DNA of 57,542 nt from the NCBI RefSeq assembly GCF_026672275.1, contig NZ_JANQCD010000030.1, forward strand, positions 1 to 57,542, in the 5' to 3' direction. The notes beneath the pieces were generated by a model. The model was not told where the DNA came from. It did no database searches and saw only the letters and a program-made list of their open reading frames with translations. Position numbers and translations under genes: made by a program. This document shows, in pieces, positions 6,233-23,046 of this stretch; position 1 is the first letter of the stretch, and each line of letters opens with the position of its first letter. The DNA comes from Marinifilum sp. D737. GTDB taxonomy: Bacteria; Bacteroidota; Bacteroidia; Bacteroidales; Marinifilaceae.

Positions 6233-7297
6233 TTAGTCTTCGTGTGAAAACTTAGGACAGGAGATGGCCTTATCACCTAGTTTCTTGACTTTTTGGCGAC
6301 GTTTTAACTTGCGAATTTCTCTTGGGTTTGAATAGTTGTAGTTGTAGGTTAAGGACACCTCTAAACCACCTCTACTGGATGATGCTACCTGCAAGTCTGA
6401 TACATTGATATCATAGGTTAGCATGATTTTTAATCGTTTTCTCTCGTAACCAAATGCAGGAATGATATCCTGGGTAAATCGATACCACATTCCGTAATGA
6501 AAAATTGTACCTCTGTTACCGAAAAGAGTCATGAAGTTTGCCCCGGCAATCCACTCATTGGCATTCTTCTCGGTTGTATACATGATTTCAGGTTTGAAAT
6601 ACATTCTTGGACTAATCCTACTTTCAGCACCTGCATGCCATGCAAATCGCCTTTTAAGGTTATTGGTACTATAGTTGATATCCTGACTTTCGTATCGATA
6701 AAATGATTCCTTTGGTTCGTTGATATGACTTACAGAGGTTCCCATGAAATATTTTGTTTTCCCTCTAAAATAAGTCATTTGCATACCCAATGAAAAGTCC
6801 ATATAGAATAGCGATTGAGAAATAAAGTCCTCTCCCGTATCTCCACCTTCCAATTGCTCACCAAATGTTAGCTTACTCAAGTCTACTGATTTATTAATCA
6901 TTTCGATCCCTGCGCCAGCATGTATGAACAGCGTATTCCCGGCATTTAAACTCTTGTTAAGAGAAGAAGCAAACATGACCTGGGTAGTTTTTAATCCCCC
7001 ATCACCGGCTTTATCATTAAAGATCATACCACCAACTCCAATCCATGATGAACTTAGCAATTGAGTTGACAATTTACCATCCACATAAACAGCCTGGGAA
7101 ACAAAAGGAATGGTAACACTATTCCACTGATTACGATAATTTATCCCTCCGCGAAGGTTGTAATCAGAATTTCCAGTAAGCGCAGGATTTAACAATAAGG
7201 GGATAGAATAGAACTGAGAAGAGTGTACACGTTGAGCCGAGAGCTTAAAAACTCCCAAAATTATAATCAACAGGAAAATAAGAATACACTTTCTCAT
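6233..7297 (-). CDS. PorP/SprF family T9SS outer-membrane protein
   Basis: A 354-residue outer-membrane beta-barrel of the PorP/SprF family, by family knowledge a partner that holds type B T9SS substrates at the cell surface. The signal peptide covers 1-22 and ends KLSAQ. The mature protein opens HSSQFYSIPLLLNPALTGN, the family N-terminal signature, and then shows alternating strand patterns throughout. I chose ATG at 7297 rather than GTG at 7303, since MRKCILIF is a normal signal-peptide start. It lies downstream of the 860-aa sorting-domain protein, the usual pairing, but with a 210-bp gap and its own promoter-like sequence. Confidence 0.9.
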   Translation of the reverse strand: MRKCILIFLLIIILGVFKLSAQRVHSSQFYSIPLLLNPALTGNSDYNLRGGINYRNQWNSVTIPFVSQAVYVDGKLSTQLLSSSWIGVGGMIFNDKAGDGGLKTTQVMFASSLNKSLNAGNTLFIHAGAGIEMINKSVDLSKLTFGEQLEGGDTGEDFISQSLFYMDFSLGMQMTYFRGKTKYFMGTSVSHINEPKESFYRYESQDINYSTNNLKRRFAWHAGAESRISPRMYFKPEIMYTTEKNANEWIAGANFMTLFGNRGTIFHYGMWYRFTQDIIPAFGYERKRLKIMLTYDINVSDLQVASSSRGGLEVSLTYNYNYSNPREIRKLKRRQKVKKLGDKAISCPKFSHED

Positions 7298-7336
7298 ACA
7301 CACTCATTTGGGTTTGCCATTTACCCCTAAAAACCA

Positions 7337-7368
7337 CAAATTTATTGGCATAAACCCCCAAAAACAAA
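7337..7368 (-). promoter_or_regulatory. Putative promoter of the PorP/SprF gene
   Basis: On the minus strand TTTG (7368-7365) is followed after 20 bases by TAAATTTG (7344-7337), which matches the Bacteroidota -33/-7 consensus TTTG...TAnnTTTG. Transcription would start some 30 bases before the ATG, so the PorP/SprF gene could be expressed separately from the operon upstream. Confidence 0.5.
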
Positions 7369-7507
7369 AAATATGAAAATGGGTAATATTACCTTATTAC
7401 CCAGACTTTATAATATTTTATTTGACAATATATCTATCCACTTTGGCGCTTTAAATATAACTAATCAATTTGAAAAACTATCATCAATAAAAATCGATTG
7501 GTCAAAT

Positions 7508-10090
7508 CTATCTCAACAGAGTAATATTACCCTGTTTTTGCATTTGGCTTCCGTCCTTAAAGGAAACTTTCAAGAAATAGACATAAACATCCATATCCAC
7601 GTTTTGTCCTTTGTAGGTACCATCCCATCCATCACCTTTACTGCGATGCATGTGAACTGACTGGAATATTCTATGACCTAATCTGTTATAAATAGTCAAA
7701 CTCATAGTTTCCACTTCTTCTACATCACCCGCAAGTTCAAGTTTGTCATTTTTTCCATCACCATTAGGTGAAAAACCTGTTGGTAAATAAACATTGAATT
7801 GACTTCCATTGGTTGATACATTTATTGTATCTCTACCAATACAACCAAACTCATTAGTTACCTCTACACGATATTCTCCAGCTTGACTTACTTGAATAAC
7901 TTGATCAATTTCGCTTGGCTTAATTTCAACATCTGTATTAACATACCACATGTAGGATACAAAATCTTCACCAGCATCCAAGTTAACCACCTGACCGTTT
8001 GTTAAGACAATATCATCACCTAAATCTACTTCCGGAGTTGGATTGAAGGTAACTTCAATACAATCTTCCTCGGTATTTCCGTTTTGATCGGTTACATAAA
8101 CACAGTATTTACTGCTCTTTTCAACATATATTCCTTCGTCCGTTGATTCTGAAGGAGTCCAGCGATAAGTTGGAGTAAAGTCTGCATTATTGGTTTTAAT
8201 TTCAGGAGTCAAGTAAATTTTCTCTCCCAAACAAACATTATCAATATCAGCACCCAAATCAACAGCAAACTTACCTTCTCGCTTGGTAATGCTTATTTCA
8301 TCTGTTCCAACACAGCCCTGAGCACTAGTTACACGAACAGAATATACATTTTCATGGCTTACGGTAATGGTTTGAGTAGTTTCACCATTTGGCAACCATT
8401 CATAAGATCCACCAACACCACCATCTCCGGCATCAAGTGTTGCACTTTCCTCATCAAACAGAACAATATCTTCACCCAAATCAACAATTGGTAATGCATG
8501 AACAGTAATCGTAATTTGATCGGTTTGCTCATTTCCTGTATCATCGCGAACTGTTACCGTATAAAGTCCAGATTCGCTAACTGTTAATGTTGAAGTTACC
8601 GCACCATTTGACCATAAATAGGTATAGTTTTGAGAAATTGATGGATTTGGATTTAAAACAATCTCATCACCCACACAGATATCCTGATCATCACCTAAGT
8701 CAATTGCAAATACATCATTCACACTTGTAATCACAATCTCATCGGAAGCCGAACAACCATTAGCATTAGTAACCGTTACACCATAGGTATTGCTCGTATT
8801 TACCTGAATGGTTTGAGATGTTTCACCAGTAGACCATAAATAATCTGCCCCGGCATTTCCTGCATCAAGTGTTAAGACCTCTGCATCGGCCAATTGATAA
8901 TCAGGTCCCAAATCGACTGTTGGAGCTTTCCAAACAGTTACATTAACAAATGCCGACGATTGTTTTCCTGTATTGGTATCGGTAACTGTAACAGAATAAA
9001 CACCTGTCTCTCTCACCTCTAGTGTATTATTTACAGAACCATCGGACCATAAATAAGTGTAGGTTCCATCAAAATCAATTTCCGGAGTTAACACTCTGCT
9101 TTCTCCCTCACAGAAACTCAAATCAGCTCCTAAACCAACCGAGAAGGATTCTACAACTGTAACATTCGCATAAACGGTATCACCGGCACAATCAAATGCA
9201 CTTCTTTCTATGAGTTTCACCTGATAATCTCCTGGTTTTACTGCCCACTGAACATCGAAGCTCAATTGACTATGGAAGTTATCGCTTAAACGACTTGCAC
9301 TTTCGTTGAGTACTGTTGCTCCAGCTGGAACAAAAATCTCGTATTTTTCACTCTTCTCTATGGTTGCTGTATATGCATGAATGGTTCCAGACTGAATTAC
9401 TGGTTCGTAGTCGCCAAATGCAGTATTTGGCAATGCCATTACATCAACCTCCAAAGTTTGATTTGCCAAATCTTCCTCGACTGGTATTCCGCTCAAAGTT
9501 TTTGCTTCAACAAGCAATATTTCTGCCCTGTGCGTTTTACCTGTTGTATTCGGAATCTCCAAATCAAAAGTAAATGAATTGGTATAAATTTCATTTGCAC
9601 CTTCTGGCAATTCAGCAGGAGCTCTGTCAATGGAATACTTAAATGTCCAAGGTTTAGGTCCGGTATAATTAACCGTTACACTCAGCTTCCCATTTGTATC
9701 ACCACCATTGTTTTTAGCACAAACATATGGCACCTCAAGATCTTCGAATACTGCTGTTGGACTTGCATCGTCTACCACTACAAGCATGGTTAGGGCATCT
9801 CCAAAACAGTGTGTGCCGATATCTTCAGGATAAACTTTTACTTCGTAAGTACCCGGATCGCTAAACTGATAATCACCTGATATATGAGTATTTGAAGCCA
9901 AAAATACAGTTGAACTCGAACCCAAAGCAGTATTTGTAACAGACCAGTGGTACTTAATACCATCAATTTTATCAACTTTAAAATTAAGCTGTGTTCCCTT
10001 TACCACATACTGCTGCGCCACAGCCGCTAATCCTCCCATGAGGATCAGCAGTGCGGTAAACAGTGTTTTATGTAGTAAGGTTTTGAACAT
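7508..10090 (-). CDS. T9SS type B substrate, Ig-like repeat protein
   Basis: An 860-residue secreted protein. Signal peptide 1-25. Residues 26-110 are an Ig/PKD-like domain and about 111-230 a second domain ending ALPNTAFGDY; together they match the layout of the six small proteins encoded just upstream. A third domain follows to about 318. Then come three tandem modules of about 150 residues, each made of two Ig-like units of the SprB-repeat type (DLG-D...C-GE...YLWS-G). The last ~95 residues are the gliding-motility-associated sorting domain: LPTGFSPNGDGKND, WDGTYKGQNVD, and an end in GNITLLR. This type B domain directs export by the type IX system and retention with a PorP/SprF partner, encoded next. 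It is the only sorting domain in the island. Confidence 0.92.
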   Translation of the reverse strand: MFKTLLHKTLFTALLILMGGLAAVAQQYVVKGTQLNFKVDKIDGIKYHWSVTNTALGSSSTVFLASNTHISGDYQFSDPGTYEVKVYPEDIGTHCFGDALTMLVVVDDASPTAVFEDLEVPYVCAKNNGGDTNGKLSVTVNYTGPKPWTFKYSIDRAPAELPEGANEIYTNSFTFDLEIPNTTGKTHRAEILLVEAKTLSGIPVEEDLANQTLEVDVMALPNTAFGDYEPVIQSGTIHAYTATIEKSEKYEIFVPAGATVLNESASRLSDNFHSQLSFDVQWAVKPGDYQVKLIERSAFDCAGDTVYANVTVVESFSVGLGADLSFCEGESRVLTPEIDFDGTYTYLWSDGSVNNTLEVRETGVYSVTVTDTNTGKQSSAFVNVTVWKAPTVDLGPDYQLADAEVLTLDAGNAGADYLWSTGETSQTIQVNTSNTYGVTVTNANGCSASDEIVITSVNDVFAIDLGDDQDICVGDEIVLNPNPSISQNYTYLWSNGAVTSTLTVSESGLYTVTVRDDTGNEQTDQITITVHALPIVDLGEDIVLFDEESATLDAGDGGVGGSYEWLPNGETTQTITVSHENVYSVRVTSAQGCVGTDEISITKREGKFAVDLGADIDNVCLGEKIYLTPEIKTNNADFTPTYRWTPSESTDEGIYVEKSSKYCVYVTDQNGNTEEDCIEVTFNPTPEVDLGDDIVLTNGQVVNLDAGEDFVSYMWYVNTDVEIKPSEIDQVIQVSQAGEYRVEVTNEFGCIGRDTINVSTNGSQFNVYLPTGFSPNGDGKNDKLELAGDVEEVETMSLTIYNRLGHRIFQSVHMHRSKGDGWDGTYKGQNVDMDVYVYFLKVSFKDGSQMQKQGNITLLR

Positions 10091-10109
10091 TTATTTCAAG
10101 TCTTAATTT

Positions 10110-10826
10110 TTAGTTTAAAGTAAGATTTGTGATAACTGGTTTAGTATGAACTGTAATTGTTCTTGAGTTATCAGCATTAACTGTAACATCAGCACCATCA
10201 TTTGTTTTAGCAGCAGTAATTACTACTGTATAGTCAACATCAGCACCAGTTTCATTTACGAAATTGTTGTTGATCGTAAGATCATCTCCATTGTTCAAAT
10301 TAGGAACTGTAGTTGGCCCCTGAACAACTGCATTTGAGGCATCCCTAATTTCATAGGTTACTTCAAATGGTCCTACTCCACCAGTAAATGCTAATTCGAA
10401 TAAACTTTGATCTGCCAGACCACCCGAAACTCCACCATTCAAATCAGAACAGGTTATTACATTTGTAGCAGCAGCCGCAAAGTTCACGAATGCTTCAGCT
10501 GCAATCGTTACATCTACATAAACAGCTTCAGAGATACAGGCATTATCATCAACTACTTGGGATTTCAATCGGTAAGTTTGCCCTACTGTAAAATTAACAG
10601 CATCCCAATTTATCGCAAGAGTTACTCCTGTTTCTCCTGTTAAATCAATTACAGCTACATCAGCTCCATCAACTAACTGCCATACATAGTGATCAGCAGT
10701 AGTCCCTGCCTGTGGATTAGCCGTATAGGTATGATCCGAACCAGAAGTTACAGTTTGATTTTGCTGAGCATTTGCCATACCGGCAAATGCAACAACACAA
10801 ATGATTAATGATAGTATTTTTTTCAT
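10110..10826 (-). CDS. Small secreted two-domain Ig-like protein (subunit 6)
   Basis: Function unknown, 238 residues. Signal peptide 1-20 (ends GMANAQ). N-terminal domain: GSDHTYTA, YVWQLVDG, then a Cys in DDNACISEAVYV. Second domain: TCSDLNGG, then beta-rich sequence to the end. The tail is TKPVITNLTLN, the P-x-I-x-x-hydrophobic form shared across the island. There is no sorting domain and no lipobox. It lies 19 bp from the 860-aa gene and 10 bp from the next subunit, so it belongs to one operon. Of the small proteins it is closest in layout to the N-terminus of the 860-aa protein. I infer a structural role at the surface. Confidence 0.85.
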   Translation of the reverse strand: MKKILSLIICVVAFAGMANAQQNQTVTSGSDHTYTANPQAGTTADHYVWQLVDGADVAVIDLTGETGVTLAINWDAVNFTVGQTYRLKSQVVDDNACISEAVYVDVTIAAEAFVNFAAAATNVITCSDLNGGVSGGLADQSLFELAFTGGVGPFEVTYEIRDASNAVVQGPTTVPNLNNGDDLTINNNFVNETGADVDYTVVITAAKTNDGADVTVNADNSRTITVHTKPVITNLTLN

Positions 10827-10836
10827 TTTCTATAGA

Positions 10837-11589
10837 TTAAAAAGCAATGTCAACAATTGTTGGAAGTGCAGTTGCAGTCCAAGTGTGAGTTACAGGAGTA
10901 CTTGTGAAATCCTTAATGGCTCCATTACCGTCTTTCAATTGATAAACATTAATGATAAAGTTTTCTGTTACTTTTGCATCAGCACTTAATAAATCTGCTG
11001 CAGGAATAGTGATTGTATAAGTACCTGCACCAGTAGTTGCACCAGCCAAATCAACATTTAACCACTTCTTAGCTCCTGTTCCAATAGCATATTCAATTTG
11101 AGCTTGTTTTCCAGATTCATGAACTAAGTAATCACCAGTAAGAGTCACTTCAAAACTTACATTTGAACCTGATATATTTACAGCACAATCTTCTGAAGTT
11201 GCATTAACAAACGCAAAATCCATGGTTGAAACTGAAGTTACAACTACTCTTAAAGTTTTATAGTTGTAACAATTCTTAGCATCAGTCTGCTTTACTCTTA
11301 AGTAATATGTAGCTGGAGAAACCGCTGGTTCATTCCATGTTATCGTTAGATCTTTGGTCAAATTGGTTCCTGCAGAAAATGTATAAGTATTTGCAGCAGC
11401 TACTACCGGAGTAGTACAATTCTCATCTGAAAATACTTCCCATTTAAAATCATCAGTACCTGTTACTTTATAGGTATGAGTAATTCCTGAATAAACATTG
11501 TGAGTTGCAGTCATCAATTCTCCATTTTGACCAAATGAAGAGTAACTTGCTACTACACACATCAAAATTGCTATTAATAGTTTTTTCAT
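10837..11589 (-). CDS. Small secreted two-domain Ig-like protein (subunit 5)
   Basis: Unknown function, 250 residues. Signal peptide 1-20 (ends SSFGQ). First domain: GITHTYKV, FKWEVFSD, then Cys in DAKNCYNYKTLRVVV. Second domain: EDCAVNISG and GTYTITIPAADL. The tail ALPTIVDIAF is nearly identical to ALPIVDLGED, which opens an internal Ig-like module in the 860-aa protein of the same operon. The chain therefore seems to end right after the first strand of a domain it lacks. No sorting domain. Gaps of 10 and 25 bp to its neighbours place it in the operon. Confidence 0.85.
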   Translation of the reverse strand: MKKLLIAILMCVVASYSSFGQNGELMTATHNVYSGITHTYKVTGTDDFKWEVFSDENCTTPVVAAANTYTFSAGTNLTKDLTITWNEPAVSPATYYLRVKQTDAKNCYNYKTLRVVVTSVSTMDFAFVNATSEDCAVNISGSNVSFEVTLTGDYLVHESGKQAQIEYAIGTGAKKWLNVDLAGATTGAGTYTITIPAADLLSADAKVTENFIINVYQLKDGNGAIKDFTSTPVTHTWTATALPTIVDIAF

Positions 11590-11614
11590 AGTTTGTAAGT
11601 ATAATTAGTTCTGT

Positions 11615-12325
11615 TTAATATTCAATATCGCTAACAGTAGGCAAAGCAAATATTGTTCTCGAATGAACTCCTTTACCAGCTACAATATTTAGTGTACCAC
11701 CATATTTATTCGTTGCCGAAATAATGGTTATATTATTAATTGTTTCATTATTTTCATCTTCAACAATGCCTAATACATTAAGCATTTTGTCTGCATAATT
11801 AATTGTCGCAGTACGGTCTGCAGTATCACCATCTAAACGATAGTTCACCGTAACTGGATATTGCGATTCGGCCAATTCTGTCCCCGAATCAAACATTGCT
11901 ATCAATTCTGTAGCAAAACTATTGTCAGCATCAGGACAGTCATCTGATGCCAGTTCTTTGAATTCTATTGTCGGTGAAGACACAATTGTGTACTTCCAGG
12001 CTTTTATATTGGTACAACCATTTGTACCCGTTGCATATAAAGTAATAAAGTAATCACCTTGGCTTAACCATTCTACGTTTATGGCATTGCTTTCACCTAT
12101 TACAGGTGTCAATTTGCACTGAGTTGAGGCATCAGCCTCTATTGTAAGAGCTGTATTGGTATATACTTTCCATTCATATGTTTGAACTTCGGCATTAGCC
12201 GGCACATGATATTTTACCTTAGAATTAAGCACAACAGTATAAGCACCCTGCCCGCTTGCCGAAGCAAGCGAGAGGATGATTACGGCAAATGCCATAAATG
12301 TCTTATATATTGTGTTTATTTTCAT
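11615..12325 (-). CDS. Small secreted two-domain Ig-like protein (subunit 4)
   Basis: Unknown function, 236 residues. Signal peptide about 1-25 (ends ASASGQ). First domain: NSKVKYHV, YEWKVYTN, Cys in TNGCTNIKAWKYTIV. Second domain: SDDCPDADNSF, where the CPD signature matches the larger subunits. The tail is ALPTVSDIEY. It bridges the two halves of the set, with the CPD signature of subunits 1-3 and the ALP tail of subunit 5. The start is six bases from the stop of the gene upstream, which indicates translational coupling. Confidence 0.85.
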   Translation of the reverse strand: MKINTIYKTFMAFAVIILSLASASGQGAYTVVLNSKVKYHVPANAEVQTYEWKVYTNTALTIEADASTQCKLTPVIGESNAINVEWLSQGDYFITLYATGTNGCTNIKAWKYTIVSSPTIEFKELASDDCPDADNSFATELIAMFDSGTELAESQYPVTVNYRLDGDTADRTATINYADKMLNVLGIVEDENNETINNITIISATNKYGGTLNIVAGKGVHSRTIFALPTVSDIEY

Positions 12326-12331
12326 TAACTA

Positions 12332-13240
12332 TTAATTCCCACCCATTGTACCAATTGTTGGCATTGTACTAAATGTATGAGTTGCGTTATTATCTGCAGT
12401 TTCATTATCAGTTGCAGAAGTTACAAGATCTTGAGTTCCTAAACTATTAATTGTTAATACTACATCAGCCGTTGCAATTTCATTATCAACAGTTACAGTA
12501 ACTAAAATGTAATCCTGAGTTCCACCAACTGTAACAATTGAACCAGCAGTTAATTCTGTACCTGCAGCATCAACAACTTTAGTAATACTAGCTCCAGCTC
12601 TTAAAGCATCGAATGTAACTTGCCATCCGTTAGTAGTATTTGTAAACTCACGATTCACACGATATACAAGTTTAGAAGTTCCTAAGCTATAGTTATCCGG
12701 ATCCATATTTACAATTGGGCTAATGGTTGTCTGATCAGGACACGTCTTATTCGTGATATCATTAGCTGGATCAGAAGGATCAACAGAACCTGGAGTAGCT
12801 GAACCGGTTACATCGGCAATCATAGCATTAAATTCACCAGACTGAACAACAATTTGGATACCCTTTACATTGGAACAACCATCTTTTTCAACATTAACGA
12901 ATAAATAGTATGTTCCTGTAGCAGTTCCATTCCAAACAATCTTTACTTCATTAATTCCTGTTCCTGTTAAATTACCATCATTCCCTGCTACAGTCGCTCC
13001 ATCTGGTGTAGAAAGAGTAAAATGTGCAAAATCTCCATCAGTAGAAGTAATTGCTGCTGCATCTATTGTAGCTGCTCTCGAAATATACCAAGTTGTCGTA
13101 CTTGCTGCATCAATATTATCGAAGTTATAGTTATGAGTAGAACCAGGATAAGGTTTCTCAAATGTACTTTGGGCTTTAGCAAGCTCTGTAGAGCTTACTA
13201 AAACAACCATTGCTATTAATAATTTATAAATATTTTTCAT
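12332..13240 (-). CDS. Small secreted two-domain Ig-like protein (subunit 3)
   Basis: Unknown function, 302 residues. Signal peptide 1-23 (ends LAKAQ). First domain: PYPGSTHNYNF, TTWYISRA, Cys in KDGCSNVKGIQIVV. Second domain: KTCPDQTTISPIVNMD, TSKLVYRVNRE, QDYILVTVTVDNE. The tail is THTFSTMPTIGTMGGN. The second domain closely resembles the C-terminal domain of the 943-aa protein (SQIQFRVNR, TDYILFTIDINN), which shows common origin. No sorting domain. Six bases separate it from subunit 4 and 17 from subunit 2. Confidence 0.87.
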   Translation of the reverse strand: MKNIYKLLIAMVVLVSSTELAKAQSTFEKPYPGSTHNYNFDNIDAASTTTWYISRAATIDAAAITSTDGDFAHFTLSTPDGATVAGNDGNLTGTGINEVKIVWNGTATGTYYLFVNVEKDGCSNVKGIQIVVQSGEFNAMIADVTGSATPGSVDPSDPANDITNKTCPDQTTISPIVNMDPDNYSLGTSKLVYRVNREFTNTTNGWQVTFDALRAGASITKVVDAAGTELTAGSIVTVGGTQDYILVTVTVDNEIATADVVLTINSLGTQDLVTSATDNETADNNATHTFSTMPTIGTMGGN

Positions 13241-13257
13241 GTCTTATATTTTTAAAA

Positions 13258-14112
13258 TTATTCACCTACGAAATCACCAATTTTAGGCATCAAGTTAATC
13301 ATATGAGTATCTGACCCAAGAGTTAAATCATCCAAACCAGTAACGTCATCAGATGCACTAGTCATTGTTAGTGTAAATGTAGGATTAGTTCCCGGAGTGT
13401 TCTTCATAATCACGGTAACTGTAACACTATCTCCTGTTTCTCCAGAAATAGATCCTGTTTTATCACCTGTTGCAGCAGGTGTCGCATCAATTGTAAAAGG
13501 AACGGTTGCATTGTCACAACTTACAGTATAGGCTCCGCTCCATTGATTTGTAGAACTTTCACGAGTAATTGTAAACGTCATACTAGTTGTTCCAGCTTCA
13601 TAATGCGTATAATCAGTTAAATTTGAAACATCTGTATTTACAACTGGTTGTAAATTTGTTAAATCAGCACAAGTTGGCAAAGCAGCAGCAGCAACAGCAA
13701 CATTAAAATCATTAGCTTGAGGCATAATATGTACAGCCTTATAGTTACCAACACCACATGAGCTACCATCTGCCGTAACATTCAAAAATAAATAAACTCC
13801 ATTTACGCCATAATTAGTATAAGCATCTGCATCCCAAGTAATTTGAATTGAAGCTGCCCCTTCAGTTGCTCCAATACTACTAGATGCATTTCCTATAAAA
13901 ACACCAAAATCTGAAAGCTTAACTGGAGTTGCAGAATAGGTACTCGACTCGGTAACATAGAATTCATAAGCTGCATTCGCCTCTACATTATTAAAAGTAT
14001 AAGTATGCGTTGCTCCAGCATAAGGCTTAACAGCAGAACTTTGAGCGAATGTTTGGTTAGCAAAGGACATAAAGCCTAAACAAACAATTAATGATAATAA
14101 TATCCTTTTCAT
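13258..14112 (-). CDS. Small secreted two-domain Ig-like protein (subunit 2)
   Basis: Unknown function, 284 residues. Signal peptide 1-23 (ends QTFAQ). First domain: PYAGATHTYTFNNV, YEFYVTESS, Cys in GSSCGVGNYKAVHIMP. Second domain: PTCADLTNLQPVVNTD, TSMTFTITRES, DSVTVTVIMKNTPGTNP. The tail is THMINLMPKIGDFVGE. It is closely related to subunit 1, with shared GxxPTFT segments and MP-x-IG-x-F tails, so the two are probably tandem duplicates. It sits inside the operon with gaps of 17 and 35 bp. Confidence 0.87.
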   Translation of the reverse strand: MKRILLSLIVCLGFMSFANQTFAQSSAVKPYAGATHTYTFNNVEANAAYEFYVTESSTYSATPVKLSDFGVFIGNASSSIGATEGAASIQITWDADAYTNYGVNGVYLFLNVTADGSSCGVGNYKAVHIMPQANDFNVAVAAAALPTCADLTNLQPVVNTDVSNLTDYTHYEAGTTSMTFTITRESSTNQWSGAYTVSCDNATVPFTIDATPAATGDKTGSISGETGDSVTVTVIMKNTPGTNPTFTLTMTSASDDVTGLDDLTLGSDTHMINLMPKIGDFVGE

Positions 14113-14147: not shown

Positions 14148-15005
14148 TTAATTAAATGTACCAATTACTGGCATCTTTTCGATCGTGTGTGTTACTGCAG
14201 ATGGTAAGTTCTCTGGTGTAACATTAGTTAATGCATCAACTACACTCGTTGGGGTTATGGTAAAAGTTGGGATTTCACCAGGAACATTATTAACAACAAT
14301 AGTTAGGGTTTTAGTATTACCACTAAGATCATCTACAGAAACAGATGTGGTTCCATTATTTGTAGTAACATCTACATCTGAACCATTAAAAGTATAAGTA
14401 TAATCACCAGACCCTACTTGAACAATATTAAAGTCAAGATCCCAATCATTATCATTTCCTGCTTTTTCGAATGTAAATGTTAAAGTTGATTTTCCAGCAT
14501 TATATACATAAGCTGGATTAGTTGTTGGTGCAACAACTGCTTGCAATCCTGTTAAATCAGGACATGAAGTTCCATCAAGATCCGAATCCGCTAATTGCAA
14601 TGTAAAATTATTATTAATTGGAGTAATCCCTACGGCATTATAGTTTTCACATACACCTGTACCTGAAATTTTCACAAATAGATAAACCTCAGTATTAACC
14701 GTAGCAGTCGTTGGCCATTCAACAGTTGCTACTGCAGTTCCTGAAGGTGTATCTGTACCCACAGTTCCAGTTGTTGACGAAGTAATATAACCAGTTAATC
14801 CGGCATTAACAGCCCCAATTCCTATATTAGACGTACTAATATAAAACTCATAGTCTAATCCATCTGTAATCCCACTAAAAGTATAAGTGTATGTATTACC
14901 AACAAATGGACGTAATTTTTCACCATCTGCATTTTGTGCAAAGACCTGAGAGGAGATCATTAAGATTCCCAAACAAATTAAAAGCGAGTGTAATAGCTTT
15001 TTCAT
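14148..15005 (-). CDS. Small secreted two-domain Ig-like protein (subunit 1)
   Basis: Unknown function, 285 residues. Signal peptide 1-23 (ends SQVFAQ). First domain: PFVGNTYTYTFSGI, YEFYISTS, Cys in GVCENYNAVGITP. Second domain: TSCPDLTGLQAVVAPT, KSTLTFTFEKAG, TLTIVVNNVPGEIPTF. The tail is THTIEKMPVIGTFN. CPDL-GLQAV also occurs in the C-terminal domain of the 943-aa protein encoded immediately upstream, so neighbours in the operon are also nearest in sequence. No sorting domain or lipobox. Confidence 0.87.
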   Translation of the reverse strand: MKKLLHSLLICLGILMISSQVFAQNADGEKLRPFVGNTYTYTFSGITDGLDYEFYISTSNIGIGAVNAGLTGYITSSTTGTVGTDTPSGTAVATVEWPTTATVNTEVYLFVKISGTGVCENYNAVGITPINNNFTLQLADSDLDGTSCPDLTGLQAVVAPTTNPAYVYNAGKSTLTFTFEKAGNDNDWDLDFNIVQVGSGDYTYTFNGSDVDVTTNNGTTSVSVDDLSGNTKTLTIVVNNVPGEIPTFTITPTSVVDALTNVTPENLPSAVTHTIEKMPVIGTFN

Positions 15006-15039: not shown

Positions 15040-17871
15040 TTATTCAAATCCCACTATTTGTGGTATTATTTTCAAATTGTGTTGTATTGTTATCGCATCT
15101 TTTATTGCGCTATCAGTTCCTCCATCAGAAATTGTAAAATCAATAGGTAATATCGTACCAACAACATTATTAATATCTATTGTAAAAAGGATATAGTCTG
15201 TTCCTGCATCTGCATTTACAACACCCGATGCATTAGTTGTGGTTCCAAAACCACTTATCAAAACTTCATGTACAGTAACCCCAGTTCCTCCTATTGAATA
15301 ATTAAAAGACCAAGCTCCAGTATCACACAATCGATTCACTCTAAATTGTATTTGCGATGTCCCAGGTGAATAGGTATTGCCTGAAGGCTCAATTACTGCC
15401 TGCAAGCCATTCAAATCCGGACAATGTGTTCCATTTGTAAATCCAGCATCGGTTTCTGGGTTCGTAGTTCCTGTTACATCAACAAGCGAAATGTTATTTT
15501 CTTTTATTACCGTAACATCGAAACTACAAGTTGCCTCATTGCCTGCTGCATCTGTTACTTCAAAAGTATTGGTTGTTGTTCCAACTGGGAAAATCGCACC
15601 TGATGCCAACCCAGCTGTTTGAACTGTAGTTGCTCCTGCACAATTATCGACTCCTACAGGTGTTGTATAAGTTACAACTGCACCACATGAACCTGCATCT
15701 GCAGGTTGGGCAATATTTCCAGAACAACTTATTGTTGGATCTTGATTATCAGTTACCGTAACAACTTGCGTATCCGTAGAAGTTAAACCTGCATTATCGG
15801 TTACTGTCCAGGTTACTGTTGTATTGCCTAATGGGAAAGTTACCGGGGCATTATTTGTCACAGATGCCACACCACAATTATCTGATGTTGTTGGGGTTCC
15901 CAAAGCAACCGAACTTGCATCACACGATCCTGCATCAGAGTTTACATTCACATCTGCTGGTGCAGTAATCGCAGGATTAACATCATCAATAGCAGTTATA
16001 GTCTGGCTTACATTAATACTGTTACTTGCATCATCAGTTACTGAATATATTCTTGTTACAATATAAGGAGATGCTGTTGTACCTAAACCTCCATTATTTG
16101 AATCAGAAACCCAAGCTACAGTTGGTGTAACTGTACAATTATCTGCTTCATCTGTTACAACCGTAATATCTGGCGTTGGCACTTTACTAATACACTTTAC
16201 TGTAATAGGGGAAGGATTCGAAGCAGTAGGAGACACATTATCCCCTAATACATTCATTTCATACGTAGCTTCATTACCAGCCTCATCTGTAGCTGTAAGT
16301 ATCACTTTTTCGCCTCCAAATACTTTTGTGCCTGCAGCAGGATTTTGAGTAATCACAAGATCTGCATCACAATTATCAATTGCATCAACGCCTACTGTAT
16401 AATCTGGCAAGGTAAAATCACAAGCGCTTCCCAAATCAATTGTGTTTGCAGGAAGGGTAGATTTGATGAATTGTGGAGGCTCTACATCTGAATTAACAGA
16501 ATAAAATTGTATACCATCAATTAAATTCCCTGAACTTGATGATGGACTAACTGTTTCAATTTGGAAACGCACTTTACCTCCTGGCAATGAGCTTGGAACT
16601 GTATAAGATCCTGAATGAACCACCCAAGCATCACCAATATCATTAGTAATTGTTGCTATATTCGAAAGAGTTCCTCCAACAGGACCAATTCGTAAACGTA
16701 TTGTTTCTGAGCTGCTATTTCTATACCTGTAAGTAATGGCCCACACCATTTCGGCTCCAGGGTTTACATCCAAATCTTGATACATGGTATTGGCACCTTT
16801 TGAATTCAATTCACAAAATTGTCCTCCATCCGGTGTGGAAACACCTAAAAAGCCCGATCTCCAGATCTCAATTCCATGGGGAGTGCTACTCCATCCATTT
16901 ACGGTTGAATAAACTTTCCAATCTTGTGTTAATACAGGTTCATTAAAAGTCCAATTCTCAATTGTTGTTTCACAAGGAGATACAACATAAATTGAAAACA
17001 ATTCTGAATATCCACCAATACCACAAGCATTTGTCCCTCTAACTTTTAATTCTCCCGAAGTTGCATCAGCAGCAAAGTTTACTGTAATCTCATCACCATT
17101 ATTTGTGATATTCGCACCAGTTCCTGAATATTCCCAATCATAATTTGTGGCATTTGTTACTGCTGGTATTCTGTATATAACCCCAGTCTGACCTGATTGA
17201 ACAATTGCATCTCCTGTAATATCACCAGCATCTGATGGCGAAGTAAGAACAGTAGTGGTTATGCCTGCATAGGTAGCTATACAACCATTAGCATTAGTAA
17301 CTTCAACAGTTACCTCCTGACCGTTTGTTAAACCTGTAGTAGAATAAGTAGAACCATCTCCATTTTGAACACTACTTCCGTCAACTTTAAAGTTATAATT
17401 TGTCCCACCATTAGCTGTAAAGGTCACATTATCACCAGCACAAATTGTATTATCCGAATCACTACTGGTTAATGTACCTGGTGGTAAAGCATGAACATAA
17501 ACTGTTAAAGTTATTACATCTGAAGAACAGCCAGGGGTTGTTTCCACAATCTCAACTGTGAAAGTTCCTGCACTTGTCCATGTATAAGAAAAAATATCTT
17601 TGAAGTAATTTGATTTATCCGCATCCGGATGAACAGGGTGATTAACTGCATCTGTGGCATCAATTGAATGTGTTACAACAGATACCGGCATAGTAACTGG
17701 AGAAGTATTTACTTTCCATTCAACGGTAGATGCATCAAAACCATACATATGGTAGTCCACAGTTTGTCCTACACAAACATGCTGCTCAGTAGCTTGTCCC
17801 CAACCATTAGTTAGGCCAAAAACAAAAATGAATAGTAAGAAGATTGTTATATGGCGTAAAAATCTTATCAA
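15040..17871 (-). CDS. Secreted multidomain HYR/Ig-like adhesin-type protein
   Basis: Function unproven, 943 residues. Signal peptide 1-26 (ends GWGQ). Domains in order: Ig/PKD-like 27-130 (VTVYVHALPPG end), two further Ig-like units to about 300, a jelly-roll, carbohydrate-binding-like domain about 300-470 (ENWTFNEP, WRSGFLGV, GNLIDGIQFY), four HYR domains about 470-790 (AIDNCD, ATDEAGNEAT, TVTDNAG), and a C-terminal domain of the small-subunit type (HCPDLNGLQAVIEP) ending HNLKIIPQIVGFE. There is no sorting domain. It is the first gene of the eight-gene run. The start is TTG; no ATG or GTG precedes the signal peptide after the upstream in-frame stop. It is a plausible distal or tip component. 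Confidence 0.88.
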   Translation of the reverse strand: MIRFLRHITIFLLFIFVFGLTNGWGQATEQHVCVGQTVDYHMYGFDASTVEWKVNTSPVTMPVSVVTHSIDATDAVNHPVHPDADKSNYFKDIFSYTWTSAGTFTVEIVETTPGCSSDVITLTVYVHALPPGTLTSSDSDNTICAGDNVTFTANGGTNYNFKVDGSSVQNGDGSTYSTTGLTNGQEVTVEVTNANGCIATYAGITTTVLTSPSDAGDITGDAIVQSGQTGVIYRIPAVTNATNYDWEYSGTGANITNNGDEITVNFAADATSGELKVRGTNACGIGGYSELFSIYVVSPCETTIENWTFNEPVLTQDWKVYSTVNGWSSTPHGIEIWRSGFLGVSTPDGGQFCELNSKGANTMYQDLDVNPGAEMVWAITYRYRNSSSETIRLRIGPVGGTLSNIATITNDIGDAWVVHSGSYTVPSSLPGGKVRFQIETVSPSSSSGNLIDGIQFYSVNSDVEPPQFIKSTLPANTIDLGSACDFTLPDYTVGVDAIDNCDADLVITQNPAAGTKVFGGEKVILTATDEAGNEATYEMNVLGDNVSPTASNPSPITVKCISKVPTPDITVVTDEADNCTVTPTVAWVSDSNNGGLGTTASPYIVTRIYSVTDDASNSINVSQTITAIDDVNPAITAPADVNVNSDAGSCDASSVALGTPTTSDNCGVASVTNNAPVTFPLGNTTVTWTVTDNAGLTSTDTQVVTVTDNQDPTISCSGNIAQPADAGSCGAVVTYTTPVGVDNCAGATTVQTAGLASGAIFPVGTTTNTFEVTDAAGNEATCSFDVTVIKENNISLVDVTGTTNPETDAGFTNGTHCPDLNGLQAVIEPSGNTYSPGTSQIQFRVNRLCDTGAWSFNYSIGGTGVTVHEVLISGFGTTTNASGVVNADAGTDYILFTIDINNVVGTILPIDFTISDGGTDSAIKDAITIQHNLKIIPQIVGFE

Positions 17872-18405
17872 ATGCTCTTGTTTAGTGTATAAATATAGTA
17901 CTTACCGCGCTTAAAATAAGCTATTTTTTTCCAATTTATAAACATCTATACGACAATTGTTAAAAAGTGTTTACTTATTTTTTGATTAATTTCATCTTAA
18001 CAGATTTTTTTATCCGTTATTGACAAATATTAATCATTTTTAAACAAGCTTTCATGAAGCAATACCTCCCTCTCATCAATAAGATAAAACTACTCATCTA
18101 CAAGTTAATATCACTAATCAACAAAAACAAAATATTGACACAATAAAAAATAATTCCAAACGTAGAGTCATTTACTTAAGGGGTGACAAATATACGCAAC
18201 ACAAGTAAAAAAAGAAGATCATATTATCTTAAATTTAGGAATCCATTCCAGAATCTCACCAATCACATCTTGTTTTACACTAAAAAACAAAACGGGTAAA
18301 GTAGCAGGTAGAATTGCCTTGAAAAGAAAAGCACTTCATGACCATTCGGTATCCTAAACAACTTATGTGATAATTTTTCTAAAGTAATAATTCTTCAAAT
18401 AAATA
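17872..18405. other. AT-rich gap upstream of the eight-gene run
   Basis: This 534-bp stretch carries no gene. It should contain the operon promoter. A perfect -7-type element (minus strand TATATTTG, 18194-18187) is present but lacks a TTTG at the expected distance. Between about 18230 and 18370 short minus-strand frames read LFRIPNGHEVLFFS and ILPATLPVLFFSVKQDVIGE in different frames, possibly a decayed gene fragment; I cannot identify it. Confidence 0.5.
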
Positions 18406-19320
18406 TTAATCATGAAATAAGCCTATTGGATTGGGAGCATCAACCAGATCAATAGTAACTATGTTTGAGTAGGTAACACAACCCGCCCCCTTACTTGCTT
18501 GACGAACAAAAAAAGTTGTTTGTGTAATTGAACCGATATTTGAAGTATAATCCAAACTCTCTGCATTTTCAATTAAAGTCCAACTCATCAAGTCGGTTTT
18601 AGGATCAGAATTTAATTTTGTTGTGTAGTACCATTGGTAGGTAAAACTGGTTTCATTGCCTGAGGTAGTCGCAGGACTAACATTCAAAAAAGGATCCAAT
18701 TCGTTTCCTTCACAAATTTCCTGATCACTTGATATTTCACCTCCTGAAAAATTCTCTCCACAAATTGCCTGATAAATAGGATTGGTCATCAAGTCTGTTT
18801 CACCTCCAAAATTACAGTTGTTCTGATAATCAGTCAAACCATCATTACTGGCAGCTCCATCACATTGTAATACAGGATAAAGATTTGGATTCAAATGATT
18901 ACCATCATCCGATCCATCAATCGATCCAAGTATGTATACATTTGACGGATCAGAACTAGTAAATCCCCCTTGATTTGTATCTGATCCCGTATGAATAAAA
19001 TCACCAAGAACAATTAAAGTACCTCCTGCCTCAATCGTCATTTTATTTTCGGTAATCAAATCTCCTTCAACAATCAGAACACCATTATTTTGAATCACCA
19101 CATCAGAATTATTATCAACAACCAAGTTTCTTACCATTAATTTTCCGGTACTGGTAATGGTAAGTAAATTTTTATTCAAATTTAAATCGGGATTAGCATT
19201 CGAACGACGATCATCCTCAGTAGAAATGGTTATTGGAGTCTGACCTGGAGGTGGAACGATACCTGCTATATTTAAAAACGCTGCACTAATTAGAGTAATA
19301 ATTACACAAATCTTTTTCAT
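18406..19320 (-). CDS. Secreted repeat protein with Ig-like C-terminus
   Basis: Unknown function, 304 residues. Signal peptide about 1-19. Residues 45-115 repeat short strands of the kind LTITSTGKLMVRNLVV, VVIQNNGVLIVEGDL and MTIEAGGTLIVLGDF, a right-handed beta-helix-like pattern. Residues 190-300 are an Ig/PKD-like domain (DQEICEGNELDPFL, FTYQWYYT, AGCVTYSNIVTIDLV). The tail NPIGLFHD matches the C-terminal motif of the neighbouring secreted proteins. No sorting domain. It lies between two adhesin-like genes on the same strand, 135 bp after the 1196-aa gene with a terminator between. Confidence 0.8.
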   Translation of the reverse strand: MKKICVIITLISAAFLNIAGIVPPPGQTPITISTEDDRRSNANPDLNLNKNLLTITSTGKLMVRNLVVDNNSDVVIQNNGVLIVEGDLITENKMTIEAGGTLIVLGDFIHTGSDTNQGGFTSSDPSNVYILGSIDGSDDGNHLNPNLYPVLQCDGAASNDGLTDYQNNCNFGGETDLMTNPIYQAICGENFSGGEISSDQEICEGNELDPFLNVSPATTSGNETSFTYQWYYTTKLNSDPKTDLMSWTLIENAESLDYTSNIGSITQTTFFVRQASKGAGCVTYSNIVTIDLVDAPNPIGLFHD

Positions 19321-19380
19321 ATCTCTAGGGGGTTACTATGTTACATCGTCTTAATTTAATTAAATTAAATCACATATACG

Positions 19381-19423
19381 AAAAAGCGATGAATTTGTTT
19401 AAGAAGTACAAATTCATCGCTTT
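19381..19423 (-). terminator. Intrinsic terminator after the 1196-aa gene
   Basis: A perfect 16-bp stem (19383-19398 with 19408-19423) and a 9-base loop. On the minus strand it runs into five T residues. It separates the 1196-aa gene from the 304-aa gene. Confidence 0.85.
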
Positions 19424-19455
19424 ATTATCATACGTTAATTATAGGCTATCTACCC

Positions 19456-22400
19456 CTAATAGAAAATCCCAATTGGTTTTGGCTCTGTTTTTACCTGAAT
19501 ATCCAGGCTGGATTGACATGATTTTGAATCTCGTACTGTAATGGTATAGACTTGAGGTACTAATCCATTCAAATGATCTGTATTCAAGGCAGTATTATGA
19601 CTCCAAAGATAGTCATACTCAGCTCCGGTAATACGAGGAGTTCCTCCCGAGGCTTCAACGCTAATTTCTCCATCTGTTCCATCCGAACAAAGATTTGATT
19701 CTATTGCTTTCAGAGATACAATAGGATTTGGATTCACCTGAATTCCACTCACACTTTGACTTGCACTACAATTATTATCGGAAACTACCTCCAATGTGTA
19801 TGTTCGCGATGTTAATACATTGGTCAATGGAACTGCTTTTACATTAAGCCCAGTACCTGTAATTTCTGAGGAAGGATTCCAATTGTAGGTCGGATTGCTA
19901 GCATTAGACACATTGGCAGTCAAATTAATCTCGGCTCCACTACACACCTCGGTTTGATCAGCTGTTAAACTATTAATAATCGGTGTAGGTTTAATTGTTA
20001 CCACAACATCATCCGAAGATTCACATGCTTTTCCAACTCCGTCGGAAACAGTAAGGGTGTATGTATATACACCTGCAGGAACATTAGGTGATATTGTAGG
20101 ATTCTCGCTATTCAAATCCATATCGGTTAATCCTAAGGCTTTGTCACAAGTCCATTCATATACAATTCCCCCAGTCCCATTTAATGTTCTGGATTTTTCT
20201 TTTTCACACATTTCAAAGTCGGCACCCGCATTGGCTTTTAAATCGGTTGGTAACGGAATATTAATTGCAACATCCTTGGAGCTACAAGAAAATTTATCCT
20301 TTATCGTAATATTATGAGCCCCTACCGTGTAGGTCCCCTGAAACTTATTCTCATTTTGAAAAGCTCCACCATCCAAAGCGTATAAATAATTAAGAGGATC
20401 CAAGCCGTCTTTTAATTCAATAATAATTGTAGAAATAGCATCACCTCCTCCACAAGTTACATTGGAAATTGCATTGGCTTTAATTTCTCCAACATCCAGT
20501 ATATCTATCTTTTTTCGGAAATAATCAGAAGCGTCGGTACTACAAGGACAACCTCTCAACACCTCAAACAAAATATCTTTGGCACCAGAAACCTCGTTAC
20601 TGGCCATATAATAAATCTTAATATCAGATTGACCAGGAGCAAATGTAACATCTTCAGGAAAGTTCCCAATTTTGGTTCCATCCTCGGTAACTTCAAAATA
20701 ATCAACTCCATTAACAGCCGTTCCTGAAATATTTACATGAAAGGTATATTCTTCATCCAAGTTTTCTTTTCTTGAAAAACTAATGTAACTCTTGTCACAA
20801 CCACGATACATCACCGACTTGTCACCATCCAATCCATCCAGTTTATTTTCAACTGTTACCTCGTTGGATTTGAAACTTTTGGCTTCAAGAAATACTGCTG
20901 AATCCCAGCTGCCATCACCCACATCTCCAACGGCAAGTTTTATATGGTACGTTTTACACATTTCAACTTTATAAGTTGCAGTTAAAACTACAGTATGCCC
21001 ATCATATTCTATGGCATAACCACCATTACCGATATACTTTCTTTGAATTCGCCCTCCGGCACTATACTCTGTTCTATCAGCAAACTGTCCATTATCCACA
21101 TAATATTTTTCATTTACAGGATTACATGAAGCGCTGGGAATCGTACTATATTCCTGATAATAAAATTCTCTTCTAGATCTGTCCCAATAAGCTCCATTGG
21201 AATCATAAACATCATTAACATTATAACTTAACCCCTGGTAGGTACCAAAACTATATCTCCCTTCTACTCCTCTACCATGAACGTTATTAATGGCAACAGG
21301 CGTAACACCATCAGGCAACAAAGCAATGTTCTTAGCTGAGGCTCTACTTCCATCTCCAATGCCAGGACCACTTAAAAAGAATCCAAAAACATCATTAAAA
21401 TTACCACATGCAAATTCTAAAAACTCCTCTGATGCAAACACATAACGAAACTGAAGCATATCTCCTGCCGGGGTAAAGTCAAATTCGAGGACTGCAGCAT
21501 CTTCTGTATTTCCTGCAGATATTCCATTTAAATCCGAATCTCCATTAACGCCTGATAAATCGCTGGAAGTTCTGTCACTACTATTGGGACCAACAGCATT
21601 GCTCACATCTCCAGTTGAAAGAATAACCCCCTCTGACAATGAAAAATCTGAATCTCCTTTATTAAAATAACCTATCTGTCTGCTATCTCCGGTAAAGGTG
21701 ACATTATCAGCAGTTAAACATCCAGTCACCAAAACATTCTGCACTAAATCTTCAGGAGAAGTTCCGATACTTGCATCCTGTGTATTAATTTTTATGGATG
21801 CAGTTGATGGTTTATCGTCATCCACAATGGTTATTGTCTCTTGCTGAGAACCATTTTCATTGGCATTGGTCACTCCTACAATATCAACAATTACATCCCT
21901 ATCTCCATCGTTAGTATTGTTATCAATTGCTGTTAAAACAATAGTCTTTGAAAGACTTCCCGCAGGTATCACAATTGTATTTGAGCAATTGTAATCAACA
22001 GAGGGTGCAGTACCTGTAAATCCTAAATTAACAGTAATATCATTCACTGAAACTTCATCTAAATTAGCAGTAATACTAACATTTCCTCCATTTTCGTCAA
22101 CCGTTGAACTACTTGTTACTAAACTTACAACAGGCATCTTTGGGAGAATATTTAAGGTATAATCTTCTACTTCTCCATAAAAGTGACTTGATTGACAAGG
22201 ATCTGAATTATTATTATAATCCAATTTCACTCTCATTCGCGTTTTACCTAATACTGCATTTTCAGGTATAGTTATAATAACAGCAGCACTATTTCTACCA
22301 TCGCTAACATTTATCTCTTCATTACTATCATTAAAGTCTCCATCCTGATTCCAATCTACCCAAAGTCTCAAATAAACTGGATATCCCCAAGAATTTACCA

Positions 22401-23046
22401 CTTCAATATTCGCAGTATAATCACTTCCTCTTACCACATTAGCAGTCATACTTGAGAAATCACCATAAGCCTCACAATTACTAGAATTATCAATGCTTCC
22501 AATTTGCAAACGACTCAAATAAAATATATTTCCTCCCCACCAATCAGTAGCGCACTGAACATTAGGCTCGCAATAAGAAGCACCAACAGAAACAACTTCA
22601 ATTATTGCTTCCCAACCTATCTGGGTATTTTTCCAATTTGAATTAAATTTAAATGTAATTGAATTACTTGATGAAGTTATTTCTCCAGGATCATTTCTAT
22701 CTTGATATGAGCCTATAAATAAACTCCCTGTATTTAAACCGTCATAAATTGAGAGAATATCATTATTTTTCCTTAATCGAAAAGAAGTAAACCTTACTTT
22801 TATAATTGTTCCAATTGGAGATGTTAAAGTTAAAGTACTATTTTCATTATCCCCATAGTTGCCAAATTTTCCTCCAGAATCATAAAAATAATCTCCCGTT
22901 TTTACACTTACAGGTGAAGCATCTCCCATCTTAATATGATTAGTTTGAGCTAACACAGATAAAGTTGCAAATGGCAGAAGCAATACTATTAATATAACTT
23001 TAAAATATGATGTGAAATAAAACTTGGTATACAAAGGACTATCCAT
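19456..23046 (-). CDS. Secreted CUB/GEVED/choice-of-anchor L protein
   Basis: A 1196-residue adhesin-like protein. Signal peptide 1-34 (ends SVLAQ). Domains: CUB-like about 35-155 (YDSGG, ILSIYDG), GEVED about 160-305 (WVDWNQDGDFND, GEVEDYTLNI), Calx-beta about 306-415 (VDENGGNVSITANL), choice-of-anchor L about 416-740 (NVLVTGCLTADNVTFTG, EGVILSTGDVSNAVG, FRYVFASEEFLEFACG), then SprB/PKD-like repeats (NVTCGGGDA, GADFEMCEKEKS, PTPIINSLTADQTEVCSG). It ends EPKPIGIFY. Proteins of this type usually carry a T9SS sorting domain; this one does not. It has its own terminator, so it is a separate unit from the eight-gene run while sharing the tail motif. Confidence 0.9.
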   Translation of the reverse strand: MDSPLYTKFYFTSYFKVILIVLLLPFATLSVLAQTNHIKMGDASPVSVKTGDYFYDSGGKFGNYGDNENSTLTLTSPIGTIIKVRFTSFRLRKNNDILSIYDGLNTGSLFIGSYQDRNDPGEITSSSNSITFKFNSNWKNTQIGWEAIIEVVSVGASYCEPNVQCATDWWGGNIFYLSRLQIGSIDNSSNCEAYGDFSSMTANVVRGSDYTANIEVVNSWGYPVYLRLWVDWNQDGDFNDSNEEINVSDGRNSAAVIITIPENAVLGKTRMRVKLDYNNNSDPCQSSHFYGEVEDYTLNILPKMPVVSLVTSSSTVDENGGNVSITANLDEVSVNDITVNLGFTGTAPSVDYNCSNTIVIPAGSLSKTIVLTAIDNNTNDGDRDVIVDIVGVTNANENGSQQETITIVDDDKPSTASIKINTQDASIGTSPEDLVQNVLVTGCLTADNVTFTGDSRQIGYFNKGDSDFSLSEGVILSTGDVSNAVGPNSSDRTSSDLSGVNGDSDLNGISAGNTEDAAVLEFDFTPAGDMLQFRYVFASEEFLEFACGNFNDVFGFFLSGPGIGDGSRASAKNIALLPDGVTPVAINNVHGRGVEGRYSFGTYQGLSYNVNDVYDSNGAYWDRSRREFYYQEYSTIPSASCNPVNEKYYVDNGQFADRTEYSAGGRIQRKYIGNGGYAIEYDGHTVVLTATYKVEMCKTYHIKLAVGDVGDGSWDSAVFLEAKSFKSNEVTVENKLDGLDGDKSVMYRGCDKSYISFSRKENLDEEYTFHVNISGTAVNGVDYFEVTEDGTKIGNFPEDVTFAPGQSDIKIYYMASNEVSGAKDILFEVLRGCPCSTDASDYFRKKIDILDVGEIKANAISNVTCGGGDAISTIIIELKDGLDPLNYLYALDGGAFQNENKFQGTYTVGAHNITIKDKFSCSSKDVAINIPLPTDLKANAGADFEMCEKEKSRTLNGTGGIVYEWTCDKALGLTDMDLNSENPTISPNVPAGVYTYTLTVSDGVGKACESSDDVVVTIKPTPIINSLTADQTEVCSGAEINLTANVSNASNPTYNWNPSSEITGTGLNVKAVPLTNVLTSRTYTLEVVSDNNCSASQSVSGIQVNPNPIVSLKAIESNLCSDGTDGEISVEASGGTPRITGAEYDYLWSHNTALNTDHLNGLVPQVYTITVRDSKSCQSSLDIQVKTEPKPIGIFY

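Follow-up and report, generated by a model that had tools for sequence, protein, structure and literature searches.

In the 57,542-nt stretch of Marinifilum sp. D737 contig NZ_JANQCD010000030.1 analysed here (the window; coordinates given without a locus name refer to the whole of it), the minus strand between positions 6233 and 23046 carries an operon that probably encodes one ordered, non-repeating surface fibre, whereby the C-terminal tail of each protein would complete the N-terminal domain (N-domain) of the protein encoded next, and the last of the chain, the base, would bring the whole assembly out of the cell. This reading draws on the gene layout and its recurrence in related genomes, on the families of the base signal and of the adjacent carrier, on the co-inheritance of each tail with the next N-domain, and on a natural fusion of two neighbouring genes.

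Layout of the locus

Re-derivation from the list of open reading frames (ORFs) put the genes of the minus-strand run at the places and sizes claimed in a first-pass annotation of this DNA. The run consists of eleven long open frames, nine of which end in a short tail after the last domain, the tenth being the base, B860, and the eleventh a PorP/SprF protein; from the M943 gene to the B860 gene, the intergenic gaps are 6–35 nt each. A scan for promoters and terminators gave counts no higher than in shuffled sequences.

In gene order, the run opens with R1196 (1196 amino acids, aa; 19456..23046), a probable alternative tip adhesin with CUB, GEVED and choice-of-anchor L domains, a SprB-repeat/Ig-like C-terminus and the tail ...EPKPIGIFY, on which Pfam and NCBIfam scans found no sorting domain of the type IX secretion system (T9SS). 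It is followed by Q304 (304 aa; 18406..19320), a probable alternative tip protein with the tail ...APNPIGLFHD and no match in Pfam, the one collection with which it was scanned, and by M943 (943 aa; 15040..17871), which has an N-terminal acceptor-like domain (...EQHVCVGQTVDYHMYGF...), a long HYR/PKD spacer and the tail ...KIIPQIVGFE. Next come the small two-domain subunits S285 (285 aa; 14148..15005; tail ...EKMPVIGTFN), S284 (284 aa; 13258..14112; tail ...MPKIGDFVGE) and S302 (302 aa; 12332..13240; tail ...MPTIGTMGGN); S236 (236 aa; 11615..12325; tail ...ALPTVSDIEY), with a conserved C-terminal domain (C-domain) and a swappable N-domain and tail; S250 (250 aa; 10837..11589; tail ...ALPTIVDIAF), again a small two-domain subunit; and the base-proximal small subunit S238 (238 aa; 10110..10826; tail ...KPVITNLTLN). 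B860 (860 aa; 7508..10090) combines a small-subunit-like N-terminus, tandem Ig/PKD modules and a T9SS type B sorting domain, and the PorP/SprF protein (356 aa; 6233..7303), of an outer-membrane carrier family, has a C-tail with one Cys (...AISCPKF...).

Tails are inherited with the next N-domain

Across 124 non-redundant junctions, a hydrophobic residue stands four positions before the tail proline in 96%, and the hydrophobic share after the proline is 75% at P+5, 23% at P+6, 66% at P+7 and 23% at P+8 (n = 124, 124, 116 and 94), a pattern that is strand-like by sequence. In 72 modules inside bases, P−4 is hydrophobic in 99%, and the alternating strand is placed earlier, at P+2 and P+4. The tail type of S238 is common to otherwise diverged base-proximal proteins in several relatives. 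The first-pass annotation had proposed that the tails copy the start of an Ig-like module in the anchor; this could not be upheld, as ungapped scores against B860 were not above chance. For ALPTIVDIAF, 95% of 1301 internal 10-mers of the small proteins score as high; the best of the nine tails is that of R1196 (22% of internal 10-mers as high), and the best small protein is S238 (30%).

Tail similarity was correlated with similarity of the next N-domain given the protein's own body (partial r = 0.324, permutation p = 0.0005, 124 junctions). In a joint regression over 98 junctions, the next N-domain retained its effect (beta = 0.28, p = 0.001), with coefficients of −0.10 for the next C-domain and 0.01 for the N-domain after next. 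Among pairs of proteins with similar bodies, tail similarity was 0.75 when the next N-domains were similar (99 pairs) and 0.36 when they were different (91 pairs).

The orthologues of S236 (17 non-identical loci) show the same relationship on both sides of one gene, with r = 0.75 for the upstream tail vs. the N-domain and r = 0.72 for the protein's own tail vs. the next N-domain. Within the protein, the correlation was 0.20 between N- and C-domain and 0.17 between N-domain and tail, and that of the upstream tail with the C-domain was −0.02. The S236 N-domain comes in three kinds, each paired with its kind of upstream tail in 21 of 21 loci (tails grouped by eye); the protein's own tail mostly fits the kind of downstream N-domain, one exception being locus L081, which shares its tail with a locus of another next-N-domain cluster. 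Between L070 and L074, DNA identity within the S236 gene is 96% in the N half, 99% in the C-domain and 57% in the tail, and the next gene differs; between the window and the Marinifilum breve counterpart (L028), it is 91% in the C-domain, 50% in the N half and 67% in the tail. Thus, the swapped unit crosses the gene boundary and consists of a tail and the next N-domain. A natural fusion of neighbours occurs in L084, where an S236-like and an S238-like protein share one 453-aa frame with two copies of the small-subunit profile.

Base, carrier and the joint in cis

The first-pass annotation had called a T9SS type B anchor and a PorP/SprF protein, and both were confirmed by Pfam and NCBIfam matches above cut-off for the type B sorting domain of B860 (PF13585, 59.5 bits; TIGR04131, 48.8 bits) and by matches of the 356-aa protein to PorP/SprF models (PF11751, 134.5 bits; TIGR03519, 168.9 bits). 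Among the window proteins scanned, a known T9SS signal was present in B860 alone; neither M943 nor any of the six small proteins matched a T9SS sorting domain in Pfam or NCBIfam. The window genome has one match to SprA (2841.5 bits), 10 type B domains and 9 PorP/SprF matches.

Residues 2–222 of B860 match the small-subunit profile, and after this region a tail-like ALPNT... runs straight into the next strand B, forming a joint in cis. In the tandem modules of the base, P.VDLG (strand A) leads into strand B, and the separate N-domains begin after that point. Counted roughly by motif, a median of 15 residues separates the tail proline from the strand motif that follows, similar to the cis joint. 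Co-inheritance, the cassette swap, the L084 fusion and the cis joint of the base support the earlier proposal that head-to-tail order is gene order, with each tail paired with the next N-domain; a distant 193-aa protein (L102) in which a single N-domain of this type is combined with a type B signal also speaks for it.

The C-tail of PorP (...KLGDKAISCPKF...) is strongly conserved across loci and contains one Cys at the place of the Cys-x-Cys of SprF; RCPKF or KCPHF is the C-terminal sequence of some further PorP proteins in the window genome. Because the Cys-x-Cys at the same place in SprF links to GldK (PMC12635249), the Cys of AISCPKF might, by analogy, link PorP to the track or ring. A second type B protein of ~770 aa stands alone beside an ABC transporter pair in three genomes (L085–L087) and shares part of the N-terminal region of the base; the base profile reaches it, but the ORF lists hold no small subunits nearby, and it was rejected as a member of the system.

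The distal end

M943 had been placed at the distal end in the first-pass annotation. It begins, however, with an N-domain of the same kind as the small subunits, and two tailed genes lie upstream of it, so that M943 is probably not distal, and R1196 and Q304 probably are. The N-termini of M943 counterparts match the small-subunit profile at E ≤ 1e-6 in five relatives (G009, G030, G057, G059 and G072), whereas that of the window M943 falls below the threshold. The upstream tails are P.P.GI(F/Y)-like, and the corresponding DNA pattern occurs in the whole window genome only in R1196 and Q304; in at least 10 loci, relatives have one to four upstream genes bearing similar tails. In L071, the tip-like and M943-like parts form one 1775-aa protein without the M943-like N-domain. 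Four upstream proteins that were scanned carry CUB, GEVED, PA14, GLEYA or C-type lectin domains, on account of which they are placed as tips, a single position for which R1196 and Q304 would be competitors.

Recurrence in Marinifilaceae and beyond

The comparison covered 24 Marinifilaceae loci (the window, L020–L025, L028, L029 and L070–L084), chosen for having a base and in several cases cut upstream by contig ends; the named relatives are Marinifilum, Labilibaculum and one other member of the family. In 24 of 24, tailed genes are followed by the base and then by PorP/SprF (the PorP of L021 being truncated where its contig stops); the assignment of the 860-aa protein as the base with PorP/SprF as its carrier or anchor is supported. 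Loci uncut by contig ends have 4–7 separate small genes, and L084 has three plus one double gene (recounted by hand). In six relatives, identity to the window is 63–93% for the base and 77–98% for PorP, and in the small genes it goes from 77% down to about 30%, or a clear counterpart is lacking. In L079 (G003, probably Marinifilum fragile, L032), oriented positions 16000–18512, the base looks broken into two frames near its start, either by sequencing error or by real loss.

A search of 56 genomes of the family with the small-subunit profile (E ≤ 1e-6) gave hits in 25, the other 31 having neither small subunits nor the base with PorP. Among these 25, 23 have a base and PorP (22 among the 24 loci, plus G058), the locus of G005 is divergent and includes a type B gene and PorP of its own, and in G072 (63% complete) the chain runs off the contig. 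The G005 locus (L129, 1858–12989) is rearranged, with most of the tailed chain after PorP and not before the base, all parts being together. In G071 (contig 117) and G072, where a chain seemed to have no base, it is truncated by a contig end, and the isolated profile hits of G057 and G059 fall on the N-terminal part of M943-like proteins. Thus, wherever the assembly allowed a look, no locus of the family was found with small genes and without the anchor and PorP/SprF.

In the order Bacteroidales, at least 56 of 295 genomes, the window's included, have a small-subunit match (E ≤ 1e-6; up to 9 candidates per genome scored). Of 20 distant loci searched with the signal of the window, 13 have a type B gene; L092 would be the fourteenth, with a TIGR04131 score of 32.7 bits, below the cut-off of 35, L091 and L100 are cut by contig ends, and L097, L105, L106 and L107 (4 of 20) have no type B gene among the proteins tested. 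The type B protein's own N-terminus matches the small-subunit profile in 9 of the 13 loci, and PorP was found in 4 of the 20, in which not every neighbour was scanned with the PorP model. Several distant loci have tails with a common motif like TS.I(Y/F/W)H. Two short type B proteins, each behind two tailed genes, are candidate minimal export adaptors by their sequence: a 193-aa protein in L102 (261–842), with one profile-matching N-domain and TIGR04131, and a 197-aa protein in L099 (9125–9718), which is alike by eye and gives no profile match. In a phylum-wide search (395 genomes, E ≤ 1e-8, up to 6 candidates per genome scored), hits outside the window genome lie in open frames >1500 aa, and are therefore likely cis tandem-Ig proteins. 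Swappable cassettes thus make up this family of systems in Marinifilaceae, and a simpler form of it occurs elsewhere in Bacteroidales.

Sequence features of the small subunits

No Pfam or NCBIfam model matched the six small proteins at E ≤ 0.05. Their architecture consists of an N-domain starting near the end of the signal peptide, a C-domain and the tail. In an alignment of diverse small subunits, the Gln after the signal-like stretch and one Cys are invariant (39 of 39), and conservation is 90% or higher for two Trp, another Cys and the tail proline; the signal-peptide-like stretch ends in Gln and not in a lipobox Cys in 39 of 39 (judged by eye). Of the two conserved Cys of this alignment, one sits late in the N-domain and the other where the C-domain begins, and they may pair as a disulfide that stiffens each subunit. 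Searches of PDB sequences with the small-subunit profile and with S302 gave no match. Foldseek with AlphaFold model 1 gave a GhpA fragment on top and several more in the top 20, at a TM-score of about 0.3, so that, at the level of predicted models, the matches are generic tandem Ig-like folds only. All 7 profile hits in the window genome are inside this locus, and 8 regions around the genome's other PorP and type B genes hold no small subunit; thus, within this genome, the chain is special to this locus.

Proposed mechanism and alternatives

The favoured mechanism, a single fibre joined head to tail, would run as follows. Each subunit would cross the inner membrane by Sec; its first domain would lack the opening strand (A) of a PKD/Ig-like fold, and this strand would be given in trans by the C-terminal tail of the upstream gene's product, so that the fibre would correspond to an Ig chain divided directly after strand A. 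The order would be the tip (R1196 or Q304, interchangeable and ligand-binding), M943, S285, S284, S302, S236, S250, S238 and B860. Tails would pair in the periplasm, before export, and B860, as the sole bearer of a type B signal, would pass the pre-assembled chain to the SprA translocon and stay on its PorP/SprF partner in the outer membrane. Gene layout, its conservation and the modular pairing are well founded, and insertion of the tail strand into the next N-domain is likely; periplasmic assembly, the tip position and adhesion are what we infer, and the boldest step of the proposal would be that the chain leaves the cell in trans.

Several observations weigh against this mechanism. The tail tracks its own protein as closely as the next N-domain (joint betas of 0.27 for the own body and 0.27 for the own N-domain), and is thus not free of its own history; in the S236 set, the protein's own C-domain is correlated with the tail (0.53) and with the next N-domain (0.42). 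Single partial correlations were also above permutation for the next C-domain (0.15), the N-domain after next (0.14) and the upstream N-domain (0.19), and a segment scan gave a modest peak, 0.50 for the tail and the next N-domain vs. 0.36–0.47 for other donor segments. Tails of three or more types precede bases that are almost identical, so the pairing is not strict. Covariation between positions of the tail and of the next N-domain (148 junctions, effective number about 76–77) was no clearer than in controls: tail P+5/P+7 and a strand B position in the following domain are among the top pairs, but the peaks of the controls (own N-domain, next C-domain and own C-domain) were almost as high and most of the strand B signal stemmed from one Phe-Phe subfamily, and this analysis was therefore set aside. 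In L084 (G014), no tip-like gene lies within 9 kb upstream of the M943-like gene (10166–11746) on the same strand. The exit of the signal-less proteins from the cell is itself a prediction.

Linkage could make a tail travel with the next gene, and one alternative is, accordingly, recombination of cassettes without contact, in which DNA neighbours move together and the proteins are diversifying, separate secreted Ig-like proteins. The segment-scan correlations, broadly alike for all segments, would fit this, and the conserved C-domains offer homology for crossovers, which might simply favour them. However, N- and C-domain of S236 are also DNA neighbours and yet correlate at 0.20, the L070/L074 break falls at the start of the tail instead of between the genes, the next C-domain has no effect beyond that of the next N-domain, and the L084 fusion joins neighbours in one frame; we regard recombination alone as quite unlikely. 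Another possibility is that the tails are short sorting or anchoring signals read by an export or processing enzyme, with no joint at all. They are indeed C-terminal, distant loci share the TS.I(Y/F/W)H-like motif, and the tip genes R1196 and Q304 do share one tail type; but no two genes from M943 to S238 have the same tail, tails vary along with the gene that follows, and the only known T9SS signal among the window proteins scanned is that of the base, which makes this explanation very improbable.

The third alternative retains head-to-tail contact and dispenses with true donor-strand complementation, the N-domains being complete and the tails lying on an outer edge strand or docked as peptides. 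It bears on the structure predictions, for which neighbours were joined read-through and folded as single chains with AlphaFold, the prediction for job 2 being written down beforehand. In job 1 (mean pLDDT 78), a strand at 206–215 takes in residues 206–212 of the internal tail (201–212) and three linker residues, with pLDDT dropping from about 72 to 48 along it, and the free terminal tail (433–444) is coil. In job 2 (an S238-like subunit and the base; mean pLDDT 69), against expectation, the tail strand was not formed except at 204–205; the positive control, the cis joint of the base, was not a strand either, at low confidence. The folds were read without coordinates, and the strand partner of the tail is not visible in them. 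Most N-domains came out as beta domains at good confidence, with a short first strand already present in the domain itself, and in job 2 that of the base (pLDDT about 82–91) folds without a donor; both features would suit edge or peptide docking. On the other side, the first strand segment of the base modules (P.VDLG) is what the separate N-domains lack, and the roughly counted spacing from tail proline to strand motif resembles the cis joint. As predicted models, the AlphaFold results on the joints are mixed and carry little weight either way, and we consider docking without complementation unlikely.

Donor-strand joining of an ordered chain could extend into a more general Bacteroidales 'export in trans', a proposition that we judge to be evenly balanced. 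A signal-less chain would be hooked by its C-terminal strand on a type B adaptor, passed through SprA and moored by PorP/SprF; the minimal adaptor would be one acceptor domain plus a type B signal; gene order would be chain order, with an exchangeable tip; and recombination would swap cassettes of a tail and the next N-domain. If so, T9SS would export proteins without its signal via a strand-coupled adaptor, and the order of a non-repeating fibre would be written into gene order, a novel route to assembling and exporting a surface appendage. The predictions would be base-dependent display of all subunits, tails that bind the next N-domain best, and interchangeable tip genes. The same reading is offered for genes that have no Pfam or NCBIfam match here, and the locus provides a natural set of separate protein joints.

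Comparison with known systems

The closest likeness is to T9SS type B adhesins with PorP/SprF (SprB/SprF of Flavobacterium johnsoniae and PG1035/PorP of Porphyromonas gingivalis), which share the type B base and the downstream PorP/SprF. Type B substrates stay bound to their carrier on the surface (PMC9143113, PMC12635249, PMC12618676), and those of F. johnsoniae leave with and remain on PorP/SprF-type carriers, through a translocon that is a 36-strand barrel with a lateral opening (PMC10994853, PMC12635249). In the type B adhesins described there, the substrate itself carries the signal, whereas in this locus a single base with the signal comes after nine genes whose products lack it.

Open-access literature (bioRxiv lay outside the search), screened mostly by title and opening of the abstract, yielded no recognisable description of proteins that lack the C-terminal sorting domain and are coupled to a T9SS base through strand exchange. 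Chaperone-usher pili embody the donor-strand principle, with incomplete Ig-like subunits and tip, shaft and base in order; their donor is an N-terminal extension, whereas here it would be a C-terminal tail, and none of the 11 locus proteins matched an usher or chaperone. Type V (FimA/Mfa1) pili of Bacteroidales are lipoproteins, protease-activated and mostly made of one repeated pilin. The present system differs from them in its T9SS base and in that neither a lipobox Cys nor a repeated subunit is present, and the locus proteins scanned gave no Pfam or NCBIfam match to a FimA/Mfa pilin domain; the likeness is that type V pili too belong to Bacteroidota and that donor-strand joining has been proposed for them (PMC4789730, PMC5789003). 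With GhpA, the grappling hook protein of Aureispira, and tandem-Ig adhesins, the system shares generic tandem Ig-like folds, but the GhpA entries are stretches of one very large protein, whereas the present chain is encoded by many separate genes. Fibres joined by donor strands are established, as are type B anchors, and the system as a whole departs from each of these classes in at least one defining trait.

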